Shown here: one piece after another, positions 5,057 through 49,569 of the stretch
How the letters are laid out: the number at the start of each line of letters is the position of its first letter
Numbering within the stretch: the first letter of the stretch is position 1
Notes under the pieces: model-generated
Told to the model about the DNA's origin: nothing
The model's database searches: none
Seen by the model: the letters and a program-made list of their open reading frames with translations, nothing else
Made by a program: the position numbers and the translations under genes
Assembly (NCBI GenBank): GCA_030433255.1
Contig: JAUIMI010000001.1
Location: 149,378-213,377 of the forward strand
Reading direction: 5' to 3'
Length of the DNA: 64,000 bases
Origin: a bacterium
GTDB taxonomy: Bacteria; Patescibacteriota; Minisyncoccia; Phycocordibacterales; UBA1006

Positions 5057-5603
5057 TTCTTTGAATAAAAAAGGTTTTACCTTGATTGAACTCCTTGTTG
5101 TTATTGCGATTATTGGAATTTTAGCAACAATTGTTCTTTCGTCTTTAGGGCGAGCACGAGATAAGGCGCAACGTGCAAATGCGCTCGTCGAGTTAGATTC
5201 TCTTCGTGATGCAATTTTTCTTTTAGAGTTAGACACTAATGTGATGATTGGAGGTCTTCCGCTTGGAACTTGTAATGCCAACGATGAATATAGTTTTGCA
5301 CCAACAACACCAGAGTGTGGTGGAGGACTTATTTGTAACACAGCTCGTCTATATCCGTCAGGGTCAACGTATACCTATCCTTCAAGTTGGGCTGGTCCAT
5401 ATGTTTCAGAAGAGGCATTAATCGACCCATGGGGTAATTATTATTTATTTGATTATGATATTCACTGTGGTACATCAGGAAATGTTATTCCTTCCTCAAA
5501 GTGTCAGGGAAATGTTGGTGATGTCGTTGGAGTTACCACAGGGGGTCCAGACGGTGATTTCTTTACTTATAGCGATAACGAAGTTGCAGTAATTTGTCCT
5601 TAA
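5049..5603 (+). CDS. Type IV pilin-like protein (prepilin)
   Basis: The start MTNSLNKKGFTLIELL was chosen over the upstream in-frame ATG 5034 because it overlaps the preceding small ORF by 8 bases. The N-terminus has the class III signal: basic residues, cleavage before Phe in KKGFTLIELL, Glu at mature position 5 and a hydrophobic helix (VVIAIIGILATIVLSSL). The 150-residue globular part has four or more Cys that may form disulfides. Pilins are processed by a prepilin peptidase and assembled in the membrane. No assembly genes are nearby, so it is either a minor or an orphan pilin. Confidence 0.85.
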   Translation: MTNSLNKKGFTLIELLVVIAIIGILATIVLSSLGRARDKAQRANALVELDSLRDAIFLLELDTNVMIGGLPLGTCNANDEYSFAPTTPECGGGLICNTARLYPSGSTYTYPSSWAGPYVSEEALIDPWGNYYLFDYDIHCGTSGNVIPSSKCQGNVGDVVGVTTGGPDGDFFTYSDNEVAVICP

Positions 5604-20980: not shown

Positions 20981-21553
20981 ATGAAGAAAAAAGGTTTTAC
21001 ATTAGTAGAGTTACTTGTTGTTGTTTCAGTAATTGGGGTATTAACAACAGTTGTTCTTTCATCATTGAATGATGCTCGAGATAAGGCAAAAGAAAAGGCT
21101 ATTTTAGCTGAAGTTCGAAGTGTGTACCAAGAGGGTGAAATTTATTATTCAGGTTCTTTCGAATATGCACCTGGAATTAAATCAATTTCAAATTGCCCTA
21201 CCTCTGAAGATGCATCATGGGGATTCTTAGGTACAGAAAAAGGACTTGCACTTATTAATTCAATTAAAGAGAAGGCAGGTGCAACAAATCCTTATGACGC
21301 AACTTGTGCAATTTCTCCAGAAAGTTGGGTAGTATCAGTTAATGTTTATGACGCAGGTGTTCTTGCTTCATCAACATTGGTAAATACTGCTTATGCACAA
21401 TCAATTGAAGGATATATTTGTTTTGATAATGGGCGACGTGTGCAAACATCAAATAATACTATTCAGCTTGATAGTAATGGCGATGCGCGACAAGACCCTG
21501 TTGGACCAGGAATTGAAGTCGTTTCAGCTAACGTGTTTGCGTGTCAACAATAA
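20981..21553 (+). CDS. Type IV pilin-like protein
   Basis: The 190-aa prepilin has the signal MKKKGFTLVELLVVVSVIGV with Glu at mature position 5, a hydrophobic helix, and LSSLNDARDKAKEKA after it. The globular domain contains two pairs of Cys. It lies immediately upstream of the structured RNA and the reverse transcriptase but appears to be an independent unit. It is one of three scattered pilin genes in the window; no assembly machinery is seen. Confidence 0.85.
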   Translation: MKKKGFTLVELLVVVSVIGVLTTVVLSSLNDARDKAKEKAILAEVRSVYQEGEIYYSGSFEYAPGIKSISNCPTSEDASWGFLGTEKGLALINSIKEKAGATNPYDATCAISPESWVVSVNVYDAGVLASSTLVNTAYAQSIEGYICFDNGRRVQTSNNTIQLDSNGDARQDPVGPGIEVVSANVFACQQ

Positions 21554-21561
21554 TACTCTTA

Positions 21562-21587
21562 ACATTAGAATTTTAGTATTCTAATGT
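21562..21587 (+). terminator. 10-bp hairpin after the pilin gene
   Basis: ACATTAGAAT paired with ATTCTAATGT and a 6-nt loop. No T-run follows, so termination is uncertain. Its right arm overlaps the left arm of the long-range helix closing the RT-associated RNA, so the two pairings compete. Confidence 0.5.
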
Positions 21588-21887
21588 AACAATCTATATA
21601 TTCACTTCTTTGCTCTTATGCAAAGTTATCAATAGTTATTGATATGCTATAAAAAATATGTCTGATAACATAATTAACATATGAAATAATTTAAATCGCC
21701 TTGATGAACCGGGTGTCATACCTTTTATCATGGGGTCCCGATCGGGAGATCCCATGACTCCAGTACAACACCGTAGTGGCTCTCTTAACGAAAAATTCCT
21801 TCAATTACGAAGAAAAAGTGTCTTATTAGGACATTCTATCTACACTATATACCTCGTATATAGTGTGTGATATATGGATTGTTACAT
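21584..21887 (+). ncRNA. Structured RNA upstream of the reverse transcriptase, closed by a 17-bp terminal helix
   Basis: Positions 21584-21600 pair with 21871-21887 over 17 bp with a single G-U, enclosing about 270 nt without a convincing ORF. Inside are a CTTTGC/GCAAAG stem (21608-21625), a TATCAA/TTGATA hairpin (21627-21644), a strong hairpin at 21728-21757 (TCATGGG/CCCATGA plus inner TCCC/GGGA) and an 11-bp perfect hairpin at 21842-21866. The middle is richer in G+C than its surroundings. The RT start codon lies 15 nt after the closing helix. This resembles the a1/a2-closed msr-msd RNA of retrons in architecture, but the RT does not show retron-specific motifs. It could be template, substrate or guide RNA of the RT (inference). 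Confidence 0.65.
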
Positions 21888-21902
21888 TATAATACTATTA
21901 TT

Positions 21903-23138
21903 ATGAATACGTACGAACACATAATTGAACTTGATAATATACGAGAAGCATACCTCGAAGTGGTTCAAAAACTCGAAGAATCAAACCGTACGTATCGCTA
22001 CCGTGCCATAGATGGCTATACTCTGAGTGATTATGATTTTATTTCTGAGCAACTTATTCAAGATATTCAAACAGAGATAATACAAGAAAAAAAGATCACT
22101 CCTGCATTAGAAATGCATATTCCAAAAAGAAACAAACCAGGAACTCGGCCCGTGTACATTCATACAATAAAAGAGAGGGTTAAAGCACAAGCAATCTATC
22201 GTGTTATTGCTCCTATTTTTGATGATTATTTTTCCCCATATCTTTTTTCATATAGAACATCTCACCCTCATTATAAGGCTATTAGAACGATTGTTCGTAA
22301 GTATAAAAGAGACCTTTCTGGATATATGATAATTGGTGATATATCAAGTTATTCTGATATTATTAATCCAGATATTTTAAAACAACAAATTAAGAAAATA
22401 GGTTTTGAGCAAAAGGTAAACTCACTACTTGATTTATACGTTGACGCACAACTGATTGAAAAAGGAGTCATCTCGTCATCTCCTCATGGTATTATTACGG
22501 GTTTGCCAATTACCGTAATGTTTAATAATTTATATTTAGATTATTTTGATAAACAAATTGGCGGGCAGGTAGCATTGTATCGTCGGGTAGGTGATGATTT
22601 TATTGCATTTGATACATACGAAAACTTACAGAGTATTCATAAAAAAATGGTTGCGTTACTAGTTAATGTTAAAATTCAACCAGAATATCAAAAAATATCT
22701 CTTCAAAAAACATCAGAACCATTTACTTTTTTAGGGTATCTTTTTTGTAATGGTGTAATTTCTATCCCCCATCAATCAATTAAAAATATTCAAATACACA
22801 TTCGAAAATCTCTAGCATTTTATCAGTTTAATACTCAACAAGAAAAAATCACATTATTTAAAAAAAATCTTTTTCAGGGAACATCATTAAAACATTATTT
22901 TATACAAATTATTCGACAGTATAATCATGTGAATGATGTTGAGCAAATTAAATTCCTTTCTCAGTATTTTTACAAAAGAGTAGTCATTTATTTCTTTGGT
23001 TCTTACTCTCCTCGTAATCATCGAAAAACCAAAAAACTTCTTAAAGATAAAAAGATTAATACTCCTTCATTAATGAAGTATTATATTGCATTTCATACTG
23101 GAGCATACAAAGGTAAATACTTAAAGTACATAAAATAA
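21903..23138 (+). CDS. Stand-alone reverse transcriptase, group II-like/unclassified
   Basis: The start MNTYEHIIEL at 21903 is preferred to GTG 21867, which lies inside the RNA. The 411-aa protein shows RT motifs in order: KPGTRPVYIHTIKERV (fingers), SPYLFSYR, the first catalytic Asp in IIGDISSYSDI (about residue 146), HGIITGLPITVMFNNLYL replacing the usual GxPQG segment, YRRVGDDFIAF with the Asp pair at about 231-232, and FTFLGY. Catalytic residues are intact. There is no maturase zinc/HNH domain, no retron VTG segment and no DGR-type accessory gene. It leads an operon: the next gene starts 2 bp after the stop. Confidence 0.9.
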   Translation: MNTYEHIIELDNIREAYLEVVQKLEESNRTYRYRAIDGYTLSDYDFISEQLIQDIQTEIIQEKKITPALEMHIPKRNKPGTRPVYIHTIKERVKAQAIYRVIAPIFDDYFSPYLFSYRTSHPHYKAIRTIVRKYKRDLSGYMIIGDISSYSDIINPDILKQQIKKIGFEQKVNSLLDLYVDAQLIEKGVISSSPHGIITGLPITVMFNNLYLDYFDKQIGGQVALYRRVGDDFIAFDTYENLQSIHKKMVALLVNVKIQPEYQKISLQKTSEPFTFLGYLFCNGVISIPHQSIKNIQIHIRKSLAFYQFNTQQEKITLFKKNLFQGTSLKHYFIQIIRQYNHVNDVEQIKFLSQYFYKRVVIYFFGSYSPRNHRKTKKLLKDKKINTPSLMKYYIAFHTGAYKGKYLKYIK

Positions 23139-23140
23139 CC

Positions 23141-24799
23141 ATGAATACTATTAAACAACAAATAAATTTATTTAAAAAACGAAGTCAGATTCGTACCGAA
23201 ATGCACCCAATTACCTTTGATAGACATGCTCGAAATTATATAAAAAAACTCATCAGAACATATAAAAAAAATATTCTATCTCTTTTTGGGATTGTATTGT
23301 TGATTAGTGTAATTGAGATAGTTATCCCGCTTGTTGTTAACGTTTTTTTAGAAAGATTTGGTTTTAACTTACAGTTACAAAATCTTTACATTATTCTCTC
23401 TATTCTTGTACTTATTCTTATTTTGTATATTACTGCTAATTATTTTGCTATTGGTATACAAAAAAGAATTAGTTTAGATATTATTAATCAAATACGAGAA
23501 GATTGGTTAAAGATATATTTAACAAAAAATCCGGTACGTTTTAATAATAGAGATAAGGGGAGTATTTACGTGAAAATAAGCTATCACCTTTCTTTACTGC
23601 AAATGGGTCTTAACAACTCACTTTTTAATTTTTTTCAATGGGGGTTATTTATGAGTGGTCTTTTGGTTGTTACTGCTGTCTTAGATACTCGTTTGTTTGT
23701 TATTTCTCTTTTTTTTATTCCACTTAATCTTATTGTTCTTTTTATTAGCTATGTATTATCTGCACATTATTTAGCCAAAGATCAAACTCTTTACTCTAAA
23801 TTACTTCGATATATTTCTGATACCTTTAATAATTTTCAGCTTATAAAAGCATTAAAAAAAGAGAATGAATTTCTTAAGAATGTTAAGCATATTGTTGAGT
23901 TAGATAATTATTTCCGAATAAAAAGAGAAATTGTATTAAACTTGGGTAATAAAATTATTTTTGTAGTAGTAACCTTACTTTCTGCAGCTATGTATTTAAT
24001 ATATTTATACTTTCCTTTTATTTCATTAGATACAACTGTTGCTTCGGTAATCCAGGTACTTATTTTTGCATTACATTTAAAACTTATTTATCTTAGTTTA
24101 CGTATTGGGTTATTTTATTTCCCGCTAAAGTTGGGTTTATATTTATGTGTCCCTCATGCGATAAATAAAAAGTCTAAAAAAATATCCAATATTTCTTCTT
24201 TAAAATTTCATGCAAAAAAGGTGCGACTTCACAATCAAGGAGAGTATTTTAAAAATCTCTCATTTCAGTTTGAAAATAGTAAAAGCTACCTATTTCATGA
24301 TGGATCTCATACCTCTAATAATCTTGAATATCTTTTTCCAGGCATGGCACCAAAATCAATAGGAAGAAATTGGGTTGTTACTGTTAATGATAAACGCCTA
24401 ACTTATAATCAATGGAACAAGTCTGATAAATCTATCTATATGATTAATCCAAGTATAGAGAGTGAAGTAAGTCTTTATGAATTTTTTAATAATACGTTTG
24501 ATATTGAGGTGTTAAAAGATTTTTCTATTTTTGATTTTATTTTTGAGAAGAAAAGGTTTCTTGGGGAAATATTAACTTCTGAACGTACAAGTTTTACTGA
24601 TGTATGCTTATTACAAATTGCATACTGTTTGATTCACCAACCTGAAATAATTATTATTGATGCAAGTGTAGTTGATATTAATTATCCAAAAATCAGACAA
24701 GCTCTTGATATTTTAAACTCACAATCAAGAGGTATTATTATTTCCTTTAGTTATCTAGAAAAACCTCCGCAAAATTATGATGTCATTTATACAATTTAG
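23141..24799 (+). CDS. ABC-exporter-like membrane protein with a degenerate ATPase domain
   Basis: The 552-aa protein has about five to six membrane helices in residues 40-330, laid out like an ABC exporter half. The C-terminal region keeps the size and strand order of an ATPase domain but not its motifs: no GxxGxGKS/T Walker A (SYLFHDGSHTSNN stands there), the signature is replaced by LTSERTSFTDV, and the Walker B strand PEIIIIDASVVD lacks the catalytic Glu. It should therefore not hydrolyse ATP. It is translated in the RT operon, 2 bp after the RT and overlapping the next gene by 23 bp. A scaffold, pore or sensor role in the membrane is plausible (inference). Confidence 0.75.
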   Translation: MNTIKQQINLFKKRSQIRTEMHPITFDRHARNYIKKLIRTYKKNILSLFGIVLLISVIEIVIPLVVNVFLERFGFNLQLQNLYIILSILVLILILYITANYFAIGIQKRISLDIINQIREDWLKIYLTKNPVRFNNRDKGSIYVKISYHLSLLQMGLNNSLFNFFQWGLFMSGLLVVTAVLDTRLFVISLFFIPLNLIVLFISYVLSAHYLAKDQTLYSKLLRYISDTFNNFQLIKALKKENEFLKNVKHIVELDNYFRIKREIVLNLGNKIIFVVVTLLSAAMYLIYLYFPFISLDTTVASVIQVLIFALHLKLIYLSLRIGLFYFPLKLGLYLCVPHAINKKSKKISNISSLKFHAKKVRLHNQGEYFKNLSFQFENSKSYLFHDGSHTSNNLEYLFPGMAPKSIGRNWVVTVNDKRLTYNQWNKSDKSIYMINPSIESEVSLYEFFNNTFDIEVLKDFSIFDFIFEKKRFLGEILTSERTSFTDVCLLQIAYCLIHQPEIIIIDASVVDINYPKIRQALDILNSQSRGIIISFSYLEKPPQNYDVIYTI

Positions 24800-26258
24800 T
24801 AAAAATAAAATTAATAAAAGAAAAAAAATACTCAAAAAGGTTTTTGTGTGGTTTTTTGTCGTCATATCTTTTCTATTTTTTATATCACTATTATTAAGTG
24901 ATTCTTTTTTGGAAGAATATCCTCATAGCGCTAAGACAGAAGAACACTTTTCGTATGATTTTTTTGGAGATATATATTTTAATGACATGGATGGTTTTGA
25001 TGCATATTCTCAGTTAACGTATGATGTCATAAATTCTGCTTCTGATTCAATACATATGGCAATGTATTCTATTAGTGATCAAAATATTGTTCAGCTATTG
25101 AATAAGAAAAAACAAGCTGGTGTAGATGTGCAAATCATTATTCCCAAGAGTAAGGGGGTTCAACATGAATATACCTTTGGGCTTACTGATTTAGAACCTA
25201 TTGAAGTAGGTAGTATTTCTTCTCAGAATGAATCAACAGATAGTGGTATGAATGGGGAACTAATGCATCATAAATTCATACTTGTAGATGCCGATACGGA
25301 TAATAGACAGCTTTTATTTGGAAGTTCAAACCTAACATATCTTCAGCAAAAATTTGATTCAAGTTTTCAATTATATACTCGAGATGCTTTTATGATTCAC
25401 TCTTTTTTCGAAGAATTTAAACTTCTTAAGAGGGATATTAATGGTCTCAAGAAAATTCGATCAGGAGTATTCCAACCCTTTACCTCTAAAGGAATATATT
25501 CAAATGGTTTTATGGAAACTTGGTTTGGGCCTGGTTTTCAAAAAAATTCAATAAAAGAAAGAATTTTAAAAGATATTGAAGAAGCAAAGCATTCTATTGA
25601 TATTATTGGTTGGCGTATTAATGATATTGATATCTTGAACGCACTTGTTCGAAGTACCAAAAGAGGGGTGGGGGTGAGAATTCTTGTTGATGATTATTAT
25701 ATGTGGGATGAGTTGTCTGTCTCTCAAAGAACAATAAACAGTAACGTAATACAGGTAGCGAGTGATTCTTATATGCATGTCATAAAAGACAACATTATTA
25801 ATTTTAACGAAGAAAATATATCTGATAATTTTAATCCTTTTTTGCACCATCACGTCATTATTATTGATGATACAAATCTTATCGCTGGAAGTAATAATTG
25901 GACACAAGGAGGTTTTTTCTACAACGATGAATCTATTATCGTAACCAATATTGATGCCCTAGTAACTGAATATCGGGAAGAATTTGATTATTTATATAAT
26001 CTTTTAGTAGCGGATACTTTCAATTTTAATTTAGACAATAATAAATTAGAGATTCTTAATTCTGAATACTCTGATACTAGCTCTTTGGTTGTGTATATTG
26101 AAAAAAGTAAACCTCATTGGGAAGGAGAAATTTGCTATCAGACTTTTATTAATCAAAATATAGAAATAATTATTCCAGATATTTGTATTACTGATACTAC
26201 CCGATTTTTTATCACCGAGGGTGATACTCTTAAAGCAAGTGCATATATCTATGAATAA
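24777..26258 (+). CDS. Membrane-anchored phospholipase D-fold protein with two HKD regions
   Basis: The 493-aa protein has a hydrophobic anchor near residues 20-42 and two PLD repeats. The first has MHHKFILVDAD followed by LFGSSNLT, a complete HxKx4D motif. The second reads LHHHVIIIDDTNLIAGSNNW, where the Lys is replaced by His. PLD enzymes cleave phosphodiesters in lipids or nucleic acids, or act as cardiolipin synthases. The anchor suggests action at the outer face of the membrane. It overlaps the preceding gene by 23 bp and rnhB by 8 bp, so the operon is tight. Whether it acts on DNA or lipid is unknown. Confidence 0.85.
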   Translation: MMSFIQFSKNKINKRKKILKKVFVWFFVVISFLFFISLLLSDSFLEEYPHSAKTEEHFSYDFFGDIYFNDMDGFDAYSQLTYDVINSASDSIHMAMYSISDQNIVQLLNKKKQAGVDVQIIIPKSKGVQHEYTFGLTDLEPIEVGSISSQNESTDSGMNGELMHHKFILVDADTDNRQLLFGSSNLTYLQQKFDSSFQLYTRDAFMIHSFFEEFKLLKRDINGLKKIRSGVFQPFTSKGIYSNGFMETWFGPGFQKNSIKERILKDIEEAKHSIDIIGWRINDIDILNALVRSTKRGVGVRILVDDYYMWDELSVSQRTINSNVIQVASDSYMHVIKDNIINFNEENISDNFNPFLHHHVIIIDDTNLIAGSNNWTQGGFFYNDESIIVTNIDALVTEYREEFDYLYNLLVADTFNFNLDNNKLEILNSEYSDTSSLVVYIEKSKPHWEGEICYQTFINQNIEIIIPDICITDTTRFFITEGDTLKASAYIYE

Positions 26259-33041: not shown

Positions 33042-33584
33042 TTTATCGTAAGTTCGGCAATGATACTTTTCTCCGGTTGATCCATCTTCCCAAAAGAAGA
33101 ACTGATTATGGGTTGTTTCATACATTGCGTAGGAAATTAGATACCCTTGTTCATTTGGAAAAGGTGAAATATTACAAGCACTTTGATAGTAGGGGCTAAT
33201 ATTCATACCTTTACTGTAGTAATAAATTGATTGACAATCATCAAATAGAGAAAGTCCTGAAATATAAGGAAGGAGATCATTATAAAAATCTTGGTTGTAG
33301 TAACCACTCACACTTGCATCTTGAGCACATACTCCGATCCAATCAGCACCATGACGACTATCTGGATAGTGCCCATTATCTGTATAAAACAATTCAAATC
33401 CATTTCTAAATTCTCTGATTACTGCTGCTGTTCGTGCATCCTCTGCTTTAACTCGAGCTTCACCAAGTGATGATAAAATAACAGTGGCTAAAATTCCAAT
33501 AATAGAAATCACCACCAATAATTCTATAAGTGTAAATCCTTTTTTCGTACTTTTTCTATTATACAAAAAAACACTATTTCCCAT
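33039..33584 (-). CDS. Type IV pilin-like protein
   Basis: A 181-aa prepilin with a longer basic leader (MGNSVFLYNRKSTKKG), then FTLIELLVVISIIGILATVI and LGEARVKAEDARTA. The globular part is rich in Tyr and Cys (DDCQSIYYYSKGM). The start codon lies inside the terminator of the upstream carboxypeptidase gene, so an internal start near KKGFTLIEL cannot be excluded. Third pilin-like gene of the window. Confidence 0.8.
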   Translation of the reverse strand: MGNSVFLYNRKSTKKGFTLIELLVVISIIGILATVILSSLGEARVKAEDARTAAVIREFRNGFELFYTDNGHYPDSRHGADWIGVCAQDASVSGYYNQDFYNDLLPYISGLSLFDDCQSIYYYSKGMNISPYYQSACNISPFPNEQGYLISYAMYETTHNQFFFWEDGSTGEKYHCRTYDK

Positions 33585-46279: not shown

Positions 46280-46599
46280 TTTTAATATTGATTATTTGAT
46301 AAGTAACAATCTGTTAATGGCAGACAAAAAGCCCACCACCAGATAGAACTATTGCTAGTTCTCACATACAAGTTTCCAAGATGTGGCACGTAAAGAACAA
46401 CCCTGATGATGGGGTTTTTATTCTTTACGTGACTTTATGGTCATATTTGAGACATACCTTATATATAGCCTATGCATAACATATACATGAGATATAAGGG
46501 TTAGCCCACTAGATTGTTAATTTAATTTTAAATCATTCTATAAAAATAAGAAAGAGGTGAGGGCTTGTAAATTATTATACACCAGTGTATAATTTTAAC
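46280..46599. other. Non-coding stretch with a long hairpin and the MerR promoter
   Basis: No supported ORF. It contains the hairpin CACGTAAAGAA...TTCTTTACGTG (46388-46432), whose loop holds a second AACCC/GGGTT hairpin with a T-run, and the regulator promoter at its right end. Confidence 0.55.
46565..46593 (+). promoter_or_regulatory. MerR-type operator-promoter
   Basis: TTGTAA (46565-46570) and TATAAT (46588-46593) are spaced 17 bp. The perfect inverted repeat ATTATACAC-CA-GTGTATAAT (46574-46593) covers the spacer and the -10 box. Transcription would begin at or next to the ATG at 46600. Confidence 0.75.
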
Positions 46600-47649: not shown

Positions 47650-49236
47650 ATGAATCAAGACAAGCAACAAAAAAATCAAAAGGCAATAATTTATTGTCGT
47701 GTTTCCTCGAAAGGGCAAGCGAGCGATGGTAACGGGTTAACGAGCCAGCAAAAAAGATGCCAAAACTATGCAGATAGAGAAGGTTATGATGTTAAAAAAG
47801 TTTTCCCTGATAGCGTTTCGGGCGGTGGTGATTTCATGAAAAGACCTGCAATGAAAGAGCTTTTAAAATACTTAGATAGCAATGCACACCATAATTTTGT
47901 TGTTATTTTTGATGATTTAAAGAGGTTTGCTCGTGATACTGAATTTCATTTTAAGCTGAGAAGTGCCTTACGGATTCGTGGGGTTATTCCTAAATGTCTT
48001 AATTATAATTTTGATGAAAGCCCTGAGGGGATCTTTACCGAAACTATTTTTGCCGCCCAAGGGCAATTAGAGCGTGAACAGAATAGAAGGCAGGTAATAC
48101 AAAAGCAACAGGCTCGACTAGAAGCAGGGTACTGGGCATTTGGTGCCAAAAAGGGTTACAAGCAAGTTCATTTTCAAGAGCATGGAAAATTATCTGTTCC
48201 AAAAGAACCTGAGGCTTCTCTTATAAAAGAAGCATTGGAAGGTTTTGCTTCTGGTAAATTTCCTCAAAAGGCTGATGCTTGCAGGTTCCTAGTTAAAGAA
48301 GGTTTTTGGGGTGGTAAGAATCCAGATAAATATATAGATAAATTTTCTCACATGTTGAGGGATGTGTTTTACGCTGGGTATGTTGAATACCCTAAGCGCG
48401 ATATAGCAAGAAGAATGGGTAAACACGAAGGATTGATTTCATTGGAAACCTTTAATATAAATCAAAAAATACTTGCGAATAAAAAAAGAAACTTTAAAAA
48501 ACGACAAGTTATGTCGCCAGAGTTTCCATTAAGGGGTCTTGTGTGCTGTGCTGAGTGTGACGGACATATTTCTGCATCGCCCTCAGCAGGGAATGGTGGT
48601 AAATACCAGTATTATTTTTGCCAAGGAAAGAATGAGAATTGTCCTGTTCACAGAGAATCAATTCAAAAAGAAAAGATAGAATCAGAATTCCATACTTACT
48701 TTAAAAAAATACAACTAGAAGATGGTGCTGATATTTTGGTTAAAGAAATATTTGAAAAAGTATGGGAAAGTGAAATTAAAAAGTTTTCTGAAAAAGGCAA
48801 CACTTTAAAAAAACGAATTATCGAAATAGACAAAGAGCTCCCATTGATTACTCAAAAGATTATAAAAGTTAAATCAGATCTCGTAGTAGAGCAATATGAA
48901 AGTGTGATTGAGGAATTAATGAAAGAAAGAAAGGGGCTAGAGTCATTCTTACAAGATAGTAATGCAGATACTGATATTCCTTACCGAACCGCCTTGGATA
49001 AATCTTTAGAATTATTCAAAAACCCTTATAAAATATGGAGTAATGCAGATTTAGCCGAACAACATAGATTATTCTTTTTTGTTTTTGATGGAAAAATTCC
49101 TTACAGCAAAAAAGACGGTTACCGAACCGCCTCTGAGCCTTATGCTATAAGTCTTTTTCGAGAATTTGCTACTGCAAACCCCCAACAAGTGGAGATGGGC
49201 GGAATCGAACCGCCGTGTAAAAAGGAAATCCTTTAA
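47650..49236 (+). CDS. Large serine recombinase/integrase adjacent to ssrA
   Basis: The 528-aa protein has the resolvase catalytic domain (IIYCRVSSKGQASDGNGLT with the nucleophilic Ser; FDDLKRFARD), the recombinase DNA-binding domain, a zinc-ribbon (LVCCAECDGHISAS ... YYFCQGKNENC) and a coiled coil. Large serine integrases insert and excise mobile elements at attP/attB sites. Its last codons (MGGIEPPCKKEIL) are encoded by the opposite strand of the tmRNA tRNA-like end, so the reading frame runs into the target gene: the element's end is here. Confidence 0.92.
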   Translation: MNQDKQQKNQKAIIYCRVSSKGQASDGNGLTSQQKRCQNYADREGYDVKKVFPDSVSGGGDFMKRPAMKELLKYLDSNAHHNFVVIFDDLKRFARDTEFHFKLRSALRIRGVIPKCLNYNFDESPEGIFTETIFAAQGQLEREQNRRQVIQKQQARLEAGYWAFGAKKGYKQVHFQEHGKLSVPKEPEASLIKEALEGFASGKFPQKADACRFLVKEGFWGGKNPDKYIDKFSHMLRDVFYAGYVEYPKRDIARRMGKHEGLISLETFNINQKILANKKRNFKKRQVMSPEFPLRGLVCCAECDGHISASPSAGNGGKYQYYFCQGKNENCPVHRESIQKEKIESEFHTYFKKIQLEDGADILVKEIFEKVWESEIKKFSEKGNTLKKRIIEIDKELPLITQKIIKVKSDLVVEQYESVIEELMKERKGLESFLQDSNADTDIPYRTALDKSLELFKNPYKIWSNADLAEQHRLFFFVFDGKIPYSKKDGYRTASEPYAISLFREFATANPQQVEMGGIEPPCKKEIL

Positions 49237-49569
49237 CGTCTACATATATAGTCTATCTTAATTTATTTAGAGAAATTATCTAAAAGATAAACAAAAGCGA
49301 TAATTTCTCGATTCTTCTGTATTTCAAAAATAATAGGAGAAGGCTATTATTTTCTAGTCCAATGGTTATGATACATCGCTATGTCATTCAGACACTGATA
49401 TAGGATGCATTCGCTGCGAAGTTTTTTACGCAAGTGCGAAAATGTTCACATTATACTGTGAAGCAATTGATTTTTCTCCATTTAAGAAGTTGATGTGTTT
49501 TACCAGTTCACATCAAACTGGATATGCAATTAAAGAATAACGATCTTTCTAGCGAAGCCTGTCATCCCC
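49190..49569 (-). ncRNA. ssrA: Transfer-messenger RNA (tmRNA)
   Basis: The minus-strand 5' end GGGGATG (49569-49563) pairs with CATCTCC (49197-49191) as the acceptor stem, with one G-U. The T-arm GGCGG-TTCGATT-CCGCC lies just inside the 3' end; CCA is not encoded. The 380-nt length is typical. A tag reading frame on the minus strand (about 49470-49430) reads ASQYNVNIFALA then TAA, the hydrophobic ALA end being the usual degradation signal. With SmpB, coded next to it, tmRNA frees stalled ribosomes. The resume codon is inferred. Confidence 0.85.

Follow-up and report, generated by a model that had tools for sequence, protein, structure and literature searches.

We analysed a 64,000-nucleotide stretch of a patescibacterial genome (lineage UBA1006; assembly GCA_030433255.1, contig JAUIMI010000001.1, forward-strand positions 149,378 to 213,377), hereafter the window, whose own numbering is used throughout. 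Its forward strand carries a predicted structured non-coding RNA (ncRNA) of 324 nt (21574-21897), followed by the genes of a 411-aa reverse transcriptase (RT; 21903-23138), a 552-aa degenerate ABC exporter (23141-24799) and a 493-aa PLD-family protein (24777-26258). The order RNA-RT-ABC-PLD is the same in all four complete loci, G000 (the window genome), G003, G402 and G994, which represent three unrelated genomic contexts, and in each of five loci a structured region with a long closing helix lies upstream of the RT gene. The structure of the RNA, its link to the RT and the operon are conserved while the genomic context varies, and the cassette is most likely a new form of RT system with a linked RNA; its RTs make up a distinct clade.

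The RNA and its terminal helix

The ncRNA consists of a terminal helix, P1, and everything that it encloses, and is supported by its folding energy and by the same layout at four homologous RTs. A sequence-only reading of this DNA had described two arms, 21584-21600 and 21871-21887, that pair over 17 bp with one G-U, 15 nt before the RT start codon at 21903. The arms and the gap are as described, but the extent of the helix was understated, as it continues outward to 21574 and 21897. The complete P1 pairs 21574-21602 (5' arm) with 21869-21897 (3' arm, ending 5 nt before the RT ATG) at 28 of 29 positions, and its score of 53 was reached by none of 200 shuffles (maximum 34.5). Folding against shuffled controls, a check proposed in the same reading, came out in its favour: the 304-nt span 21584-21887 folds at -94.3 kcal/mol, against -55.9 +/- 4.7 kcal/mol for 100 dinucleotide shuffles, none of which was as low (z -8.1). 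Four further stems had been noted inside the helix. The two that were characterised, an 11-bp perfect hairpin with the loop CUC (21842-21866) and a G+C-rich hairpin (about 21729-21756) in a portion of the RNA whose length varies among loci, were recovered, but the minimum-free-energy fold has about seven stems.

No Rfam family matched the RNA, either in a scan of the window at gathering score or in a relaxed search of the RNA itself, and a promoter scan gave a result no better than chance. The 5' arm of P1 can also pair with the sequence immediately upstream (acattagaat/attctaatgt, 21562-21587), and this alternative pairing is a possible switch or decoy.

Homologous loci and covariation

RT searches covered about 1,100 Patescibacteria genomes, GTDB contigs and IMG/VR; the GTDB contig scan depends on short exact peptide patterns and misses divergent members, G994 not being returned by it. 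Four divergent homologues were found, in order of phylogenetic distance from the window: G003 (same genus, RT 54% identical), G402 (same order, 36%) and G994 (same phylum only, 32%), together with L076, an IMG/VR contig whose RT is 38% identical and truncated by the contig end. The records of G003 and G402 carry the database label Candidatus Paceibacterota. A near copy of the window, L066, is 98.4% identical at the DNA level. Its sequence (L066:1-4167) is contig JAGQYS010000144.1, labelled Flavobacteriaceae and most likely misbinned, and its ABC gene differs from that of the window by indels and substitutions. Scans of IMG/VR with the window RT alone, with a three-RT profile and with the ABC profile gave no match. 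Those weaker RT matches that we inspected were RTs of the type found in diversity-generating retroelements (DGR).

The terminal helix measures 31 bp in G003, pairs 28 of 29 positions in G402, and in L076 is formed of 17 and 10 bp flanking a 3x3 loop. It is weaker in G994 (about 5 and 12 bp), where 5 of 200 shuffles were equally good; in the other four loci no shuffle out of 200 reached the helix score. The distance from the 3' arm to the ATG is 0 to 7 nt in four of the five loci and 56 nt in G994. Apart from their mutual pairing, the arm sequences are unrelated among loci. The sequence-only reading had made its proposal depend on compensatory changes in the arms of homologues, and these are present: for the inner 20 positions of P1 in the window and the four divergent homologues, pairing is retained in 93% of cells, and 19 of the 20 pairs show changes in both arms. 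None of 500 shuffles equalled the covariation score of 1.285 (0.348 in shuffles), and pairing falls to 32-49% when one strand is shifted against the other by one to three bases. The arms were chosen as the best helix of each locus, which favours pairing, and the fair control is the 200-shuffle test, which uses the same picking rule.

A second helix, P4b, emerged from a MAFFT alignment made without structural input. Its 5' strand is AGUUAUU (21634-21640), and its 3' strand, which holds a GA(A) internal loop, is the best-conserved segment of the RNA in the alignment of the five loci, UGAAAUAAUUUA (21682-21693). In this helix 97% of cells pair, against at most 61% when the strands are slid, and one pair occurs as U-A, C-G and A-U; covariation is modest (this one pair), yet independent of helix picking. 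Across the five loci, whose RNAs range from 197 to 324 nt, the distance of the conserved segment from the 5' end of P1 stays at 97-109 nt, and the region between this segment and the 3' arm of P1 is shorter in G402 and G994. The segment is a candidate RT-binding element or template. In the minimum-free-energy fold of the window P4b is not formed, being outcompeted by a local hairpin, and it is therefore an alternative inferred from the homologues. Read as codons, the conserved segment gives start-Lys/Asn-stop in each of the five loci.

The reverse transcriptase

The RT (RVT_1, E 1e-9) has its catalytic aspartates in DISSYSD and VGDD, and the motif A aspartate and VGDD are kept in all five RTs. 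Between the window and L066 there are seven synonymous and five non-synonymous codon changes over 255 and 981 sites, respectively, which indicates purifying selection. The five RTs form one clade (support 100/100) apart from the DGR, group II intron, Drt2 and RT-Cas1 sequences, in a tree that held these groups (RT-Cas1 with a single row) and left out retron, DRT9, DRT10 (UG17) and UG26 RTs.

An AlphaFold2 model of the RT (pLDDT 81) matched best the group II intron RT GsI-IIC (Z 29.5 over 376 residues), followed by the RT of the defence-associated reverse transcriptase (DRT) system DRT9 (Z 23.7 over 381 residues, full length), DRT2 (Z 20.3) and retron RTs (about 17). Sequence matches in the PDB follow a similar order: E values of 1e-24 to 1e-29 for RT-Cas1 and group IIC-type RTs, 4e-16 for DRT9, and 1e-5 to 0.009 for retron RTs, the weakest. 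Among PADLOC profiles, the best specific DRT match is UG26 (91-118 bits), and the UG17 profile is also among the best RT matches, with E values down to 1e-28. No UG group, UG26 included, is assigned to the RT, because the UG26 profile is not specific and gives further RTs in these genomes scores that are almost as high (81-86 bits). Ser389 is invariant in the four complete RTs and, by analogy with DRT10, is no more than a candidate protein primer. The window genome encodes a second RT (L002, G000:C4:52631-53458), which matches like DGR-type RTs and whose query alignment crosses stop codons.

The ABC and PLD proteins

The ABC protein (PF00664, E 4e-14; 552-578 aa across loci) combines a transmembrane domain with a nucleotide-binding-like domain that in the window lacks both Walker A and the LSGG signature. 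Among the four members, Walker A is present in G402 only, and the signature motif is found in the nucleotide-binding region of none. A low-confidence model matches exporters of the MsbA/HlyB/PCAT1 type over its full length.

The PLD-family protein has two PLD domains (PLDc_2, E 4e-37), and PLDc_2 is found in all four complete cassettes. The superfamily motif HxK(x)4D is represented: the first HxK is intact in 4/4 members, while the second motif is HxH. The best NCBIfam match is the nuclease NucT. A single N-terminal membrane helix is preceded by basic residues, an arrangement that points to a PLD domain outside the cytoplasm.

A cassette gained or lost as a unit

Judging from gene names read from translations, the cassette is flanked by dnaE and rnhB in G000 and G003, and in G402 by genes resembling those of an FAD-type oxidase and an ABC-2 exporter. 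In G994 its neighbours are a pilin gene and genes that resemble those of valyl-tRNA synthetase, MutS and a sigma factor. In two genomes of the window's genus that have no RT, dnaE directly adjoins rnhB, so the whole cassette comes or goes together. The ABC profile, run against 397 genomes of the order, matches exactly three, the three RT carriers. Neighbouring genes were considered as further parts of the cassette and set aside: dnaE and rnhB are chromosomal neighbours only, and a pilin gene at 20981-21553 is absent in G003.

Comparison with known systems

In structure and linkage the locus has what marks class 2 DRTs, a cis-encoded structured ncRNA beside the RT. In DRT2, DRT9 and DRT10 the RT binds and copies such an RNA (PMC11100668, PMC12483538, PMC12632851), and the upstream ncRNA of DRT9 and DRT10 is a large stem-loop that carries smaller ones (PMC12632851, PMC12483538). 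DRT10 (UG17), which requires a SLATT-domain partner protein (PMC12632851), resembles our cassette in having an upstream cis-encoded ncRNA with a large decorated stem-loop, one RT and a partner protein; it differs in the partner (SLATT instead of ABC and PLD) and in the length of the ncRNA (137 nt versus 197-324 nt). A DRT10-style A-B-A' template was sought in the RNA and rejected: AAAT-AATTT-AAAT in the window fits a 9+4 arrangement, but it is AT-rich, is not kept elsewhere and is predicted to be paired in several loci. DRT9 (PMC12483538; PDB 9vma, 9nlv) likewise has its ncRNA immediately upstream of the RT and aligns with our RT model over its full length, but it has two components only, its RT is about 18% identical, and no uridine-tract template was recognised in the cassette RNA. 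DRT2 (PMC11100668; PDB 9c0i) shares the RT fold and an ncRNA with stem-loops and a basal stem, but has no ABC or PLD partner, and the cassette RT falls in a separate, strongly supported clade.

Two other kinds of element share features of the RT and were rejected. DGRs occur in the same host group and provide the commonest weaker RT matches in these genomes; the cassette RT, however, lacks [ILV]GxxxSQ at motif B (one match to this pattern in the G994 RT falls outside the motif), has VGDD instead of YxDD and belongs to a separate clade, and we found no pair of template and variable repeats (TR/VR) around the cassettes. RTs of group IIC introns provide the best fold match, but the cassette RT again stands in a separate clade and scores 106 bits against an NCBIfam cut-off of 300, and the group II intron families of Rfam matched neither the window, at gathering score, nor the RNA itself under relaxed settings.

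Proposed function and alternatives

We put at somewhat better than even the chance that this is a self-contained, class-2-DRT-like ncRNA-RT-ABC-PLD cassette, with an RNA-templated DNA product and a pair of membrane effectors, and that its purpose is most likely anti-phage. Antiviral defence is the role of most bacterial systems in which a small RNA is copied into DNA. Because of the analogy with DRT2, DRT9 and DRT10, we propose that the RNA is scaffold and template of the RT and that the ABC and PLD proteins are the effector. The ncRNA would be transcribed together with the RT or ahead of it, with P1 holding its ends together. The RT would recognise the folded RNA, likely through the conserved P4b, and would copy part of it into DNA, as in those three systems. 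The degenerate ABC exporter and the membrane-anchored PLD protein would together form a membrane effector, which the DNA product or the RNA-RT complex may control and which would most likely stop phage-infected cells.

Several points weigh against this proposal. Fold predictions for several homologues have most of the conserved UGAAAUAAUUUA segment paired, and because of this no single-stranded template can be named. Membership of the RT in a UG group is unproved, since further RTs in these genomes are matched by the PADLOC UG profiles to nearly the same degree. We saw no known defence gene beside the cassette, and it is rare, with four carriers in about 1,100 Patescibacteria genomes, as estimated from samples. 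The comparison also draws on five divergent loci, one of them cut by a contig end.

It is unlikely that the RNA is purely a cis-acting 5' leader whose structure governs RT translation or transcript stability and which is no partner of the RT. In four of five loci the 3' arm of P1 lies so near the ATG that it might mask the start region, but the G994 helix ends 56 nt upstream, and a distant, conserved P4b within 200-320 nt of nested structure exceeds the needs of a start-codon switch. In the nearest known systems, moreover, the upstream RNAs linked to RTs are RT partners.

We give a similarly small chance to a role in DNA handling or export, in which the ABC-like protein and an outward-facing PLD protein form a membrane complex that receives the DNA made by the RT and has no part in phage defence. 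The putative position of the PLD domain outside the cytoplasm, the NucT match and the full-length exporter fold would fit such a role. Active export is doubtful, however, because three of the four ABC proteins have no Walker A, and we know of no precedent. A broader version appears improbable to about the same degree: the cassette would be a new RT-ncRNA type outside the named UG/DRT groups and retrons, and an ATPase-dead ABC exporter, together with an outward-facing PLD protein, would mediate the action of its DNA product at the membrane, in DNA export, processing or host-cell contact rather than in phage defence.

A true retron, in which the RNA would be msr-msd, P1 the a1/a2 helix and the ABC and PLD proteins the effector, and in which the RT would make branched msDNA, is quite improbable. 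The sequence-only reading had likened the layout to a1/a2, and covariation bears this out: there is an RNA directly upstream of the RT, tied to it and closed by a long terminal helix, and accessory effector genes are also a retron feature. Membership in the retrons finds no support, as NAxxH and VTG are missing in all five RTs and retron RTs (e.g., Ec86, Eco7, Ec78) match poorly in both sequence and fold. That P1 is the terminal inverted repeat of an insertion resembling a miniature inverted-repeat transposable element, or chance AT-rich pairing, can be dismissed as extremely improbable: the arms are AT-rich with inverted-repeat geometry, but transposon ends would be conserved in sequence, these arms are unrelated among loci though their pairing and position are kept, and no shuffle matched the helix in four loci.

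Among bacterial RTs paired with small RNAs, cases of de novo genes, DNA homopolymers and telomerase-like synthesis of repeats have already come to light. The cassette extends this range by an RT clade of its own, linked to a strongly structured RNA and to two membrane partners, in very small bacterial genomes. We found no description of ABC and PLD proteins as RT partners in the literature searched, and searches on such RT-RNA systems in Patescibacteria gave nothing relevant. The conserved helices P1 and P4b are direct targets for testing.

Other features of the window and the homologous loci

The gene at 20981-21553, between dnaE and the RNA, is type IV pilin-like. Pilin-like N-terminal segments also occur in the window at 5062-5167 (+) and 33444-33546 (-), and a pilin-like gene in divergent orientation lies beside the G994 cassette (L073:5030-5479). 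In L076, whose contig is filed as viral, the RNA is adjoined by the gene of a 1405-aa repetitive, surface-type protein with internal repeats (L076:499-4716). Elsewhere in the window there are a match to the Rfam LOOT RNA at 46345-46471 (-), scoring 47.3 bits against a gathering score of 46.4, and a tmRNA gene at 49187-49569 (-).
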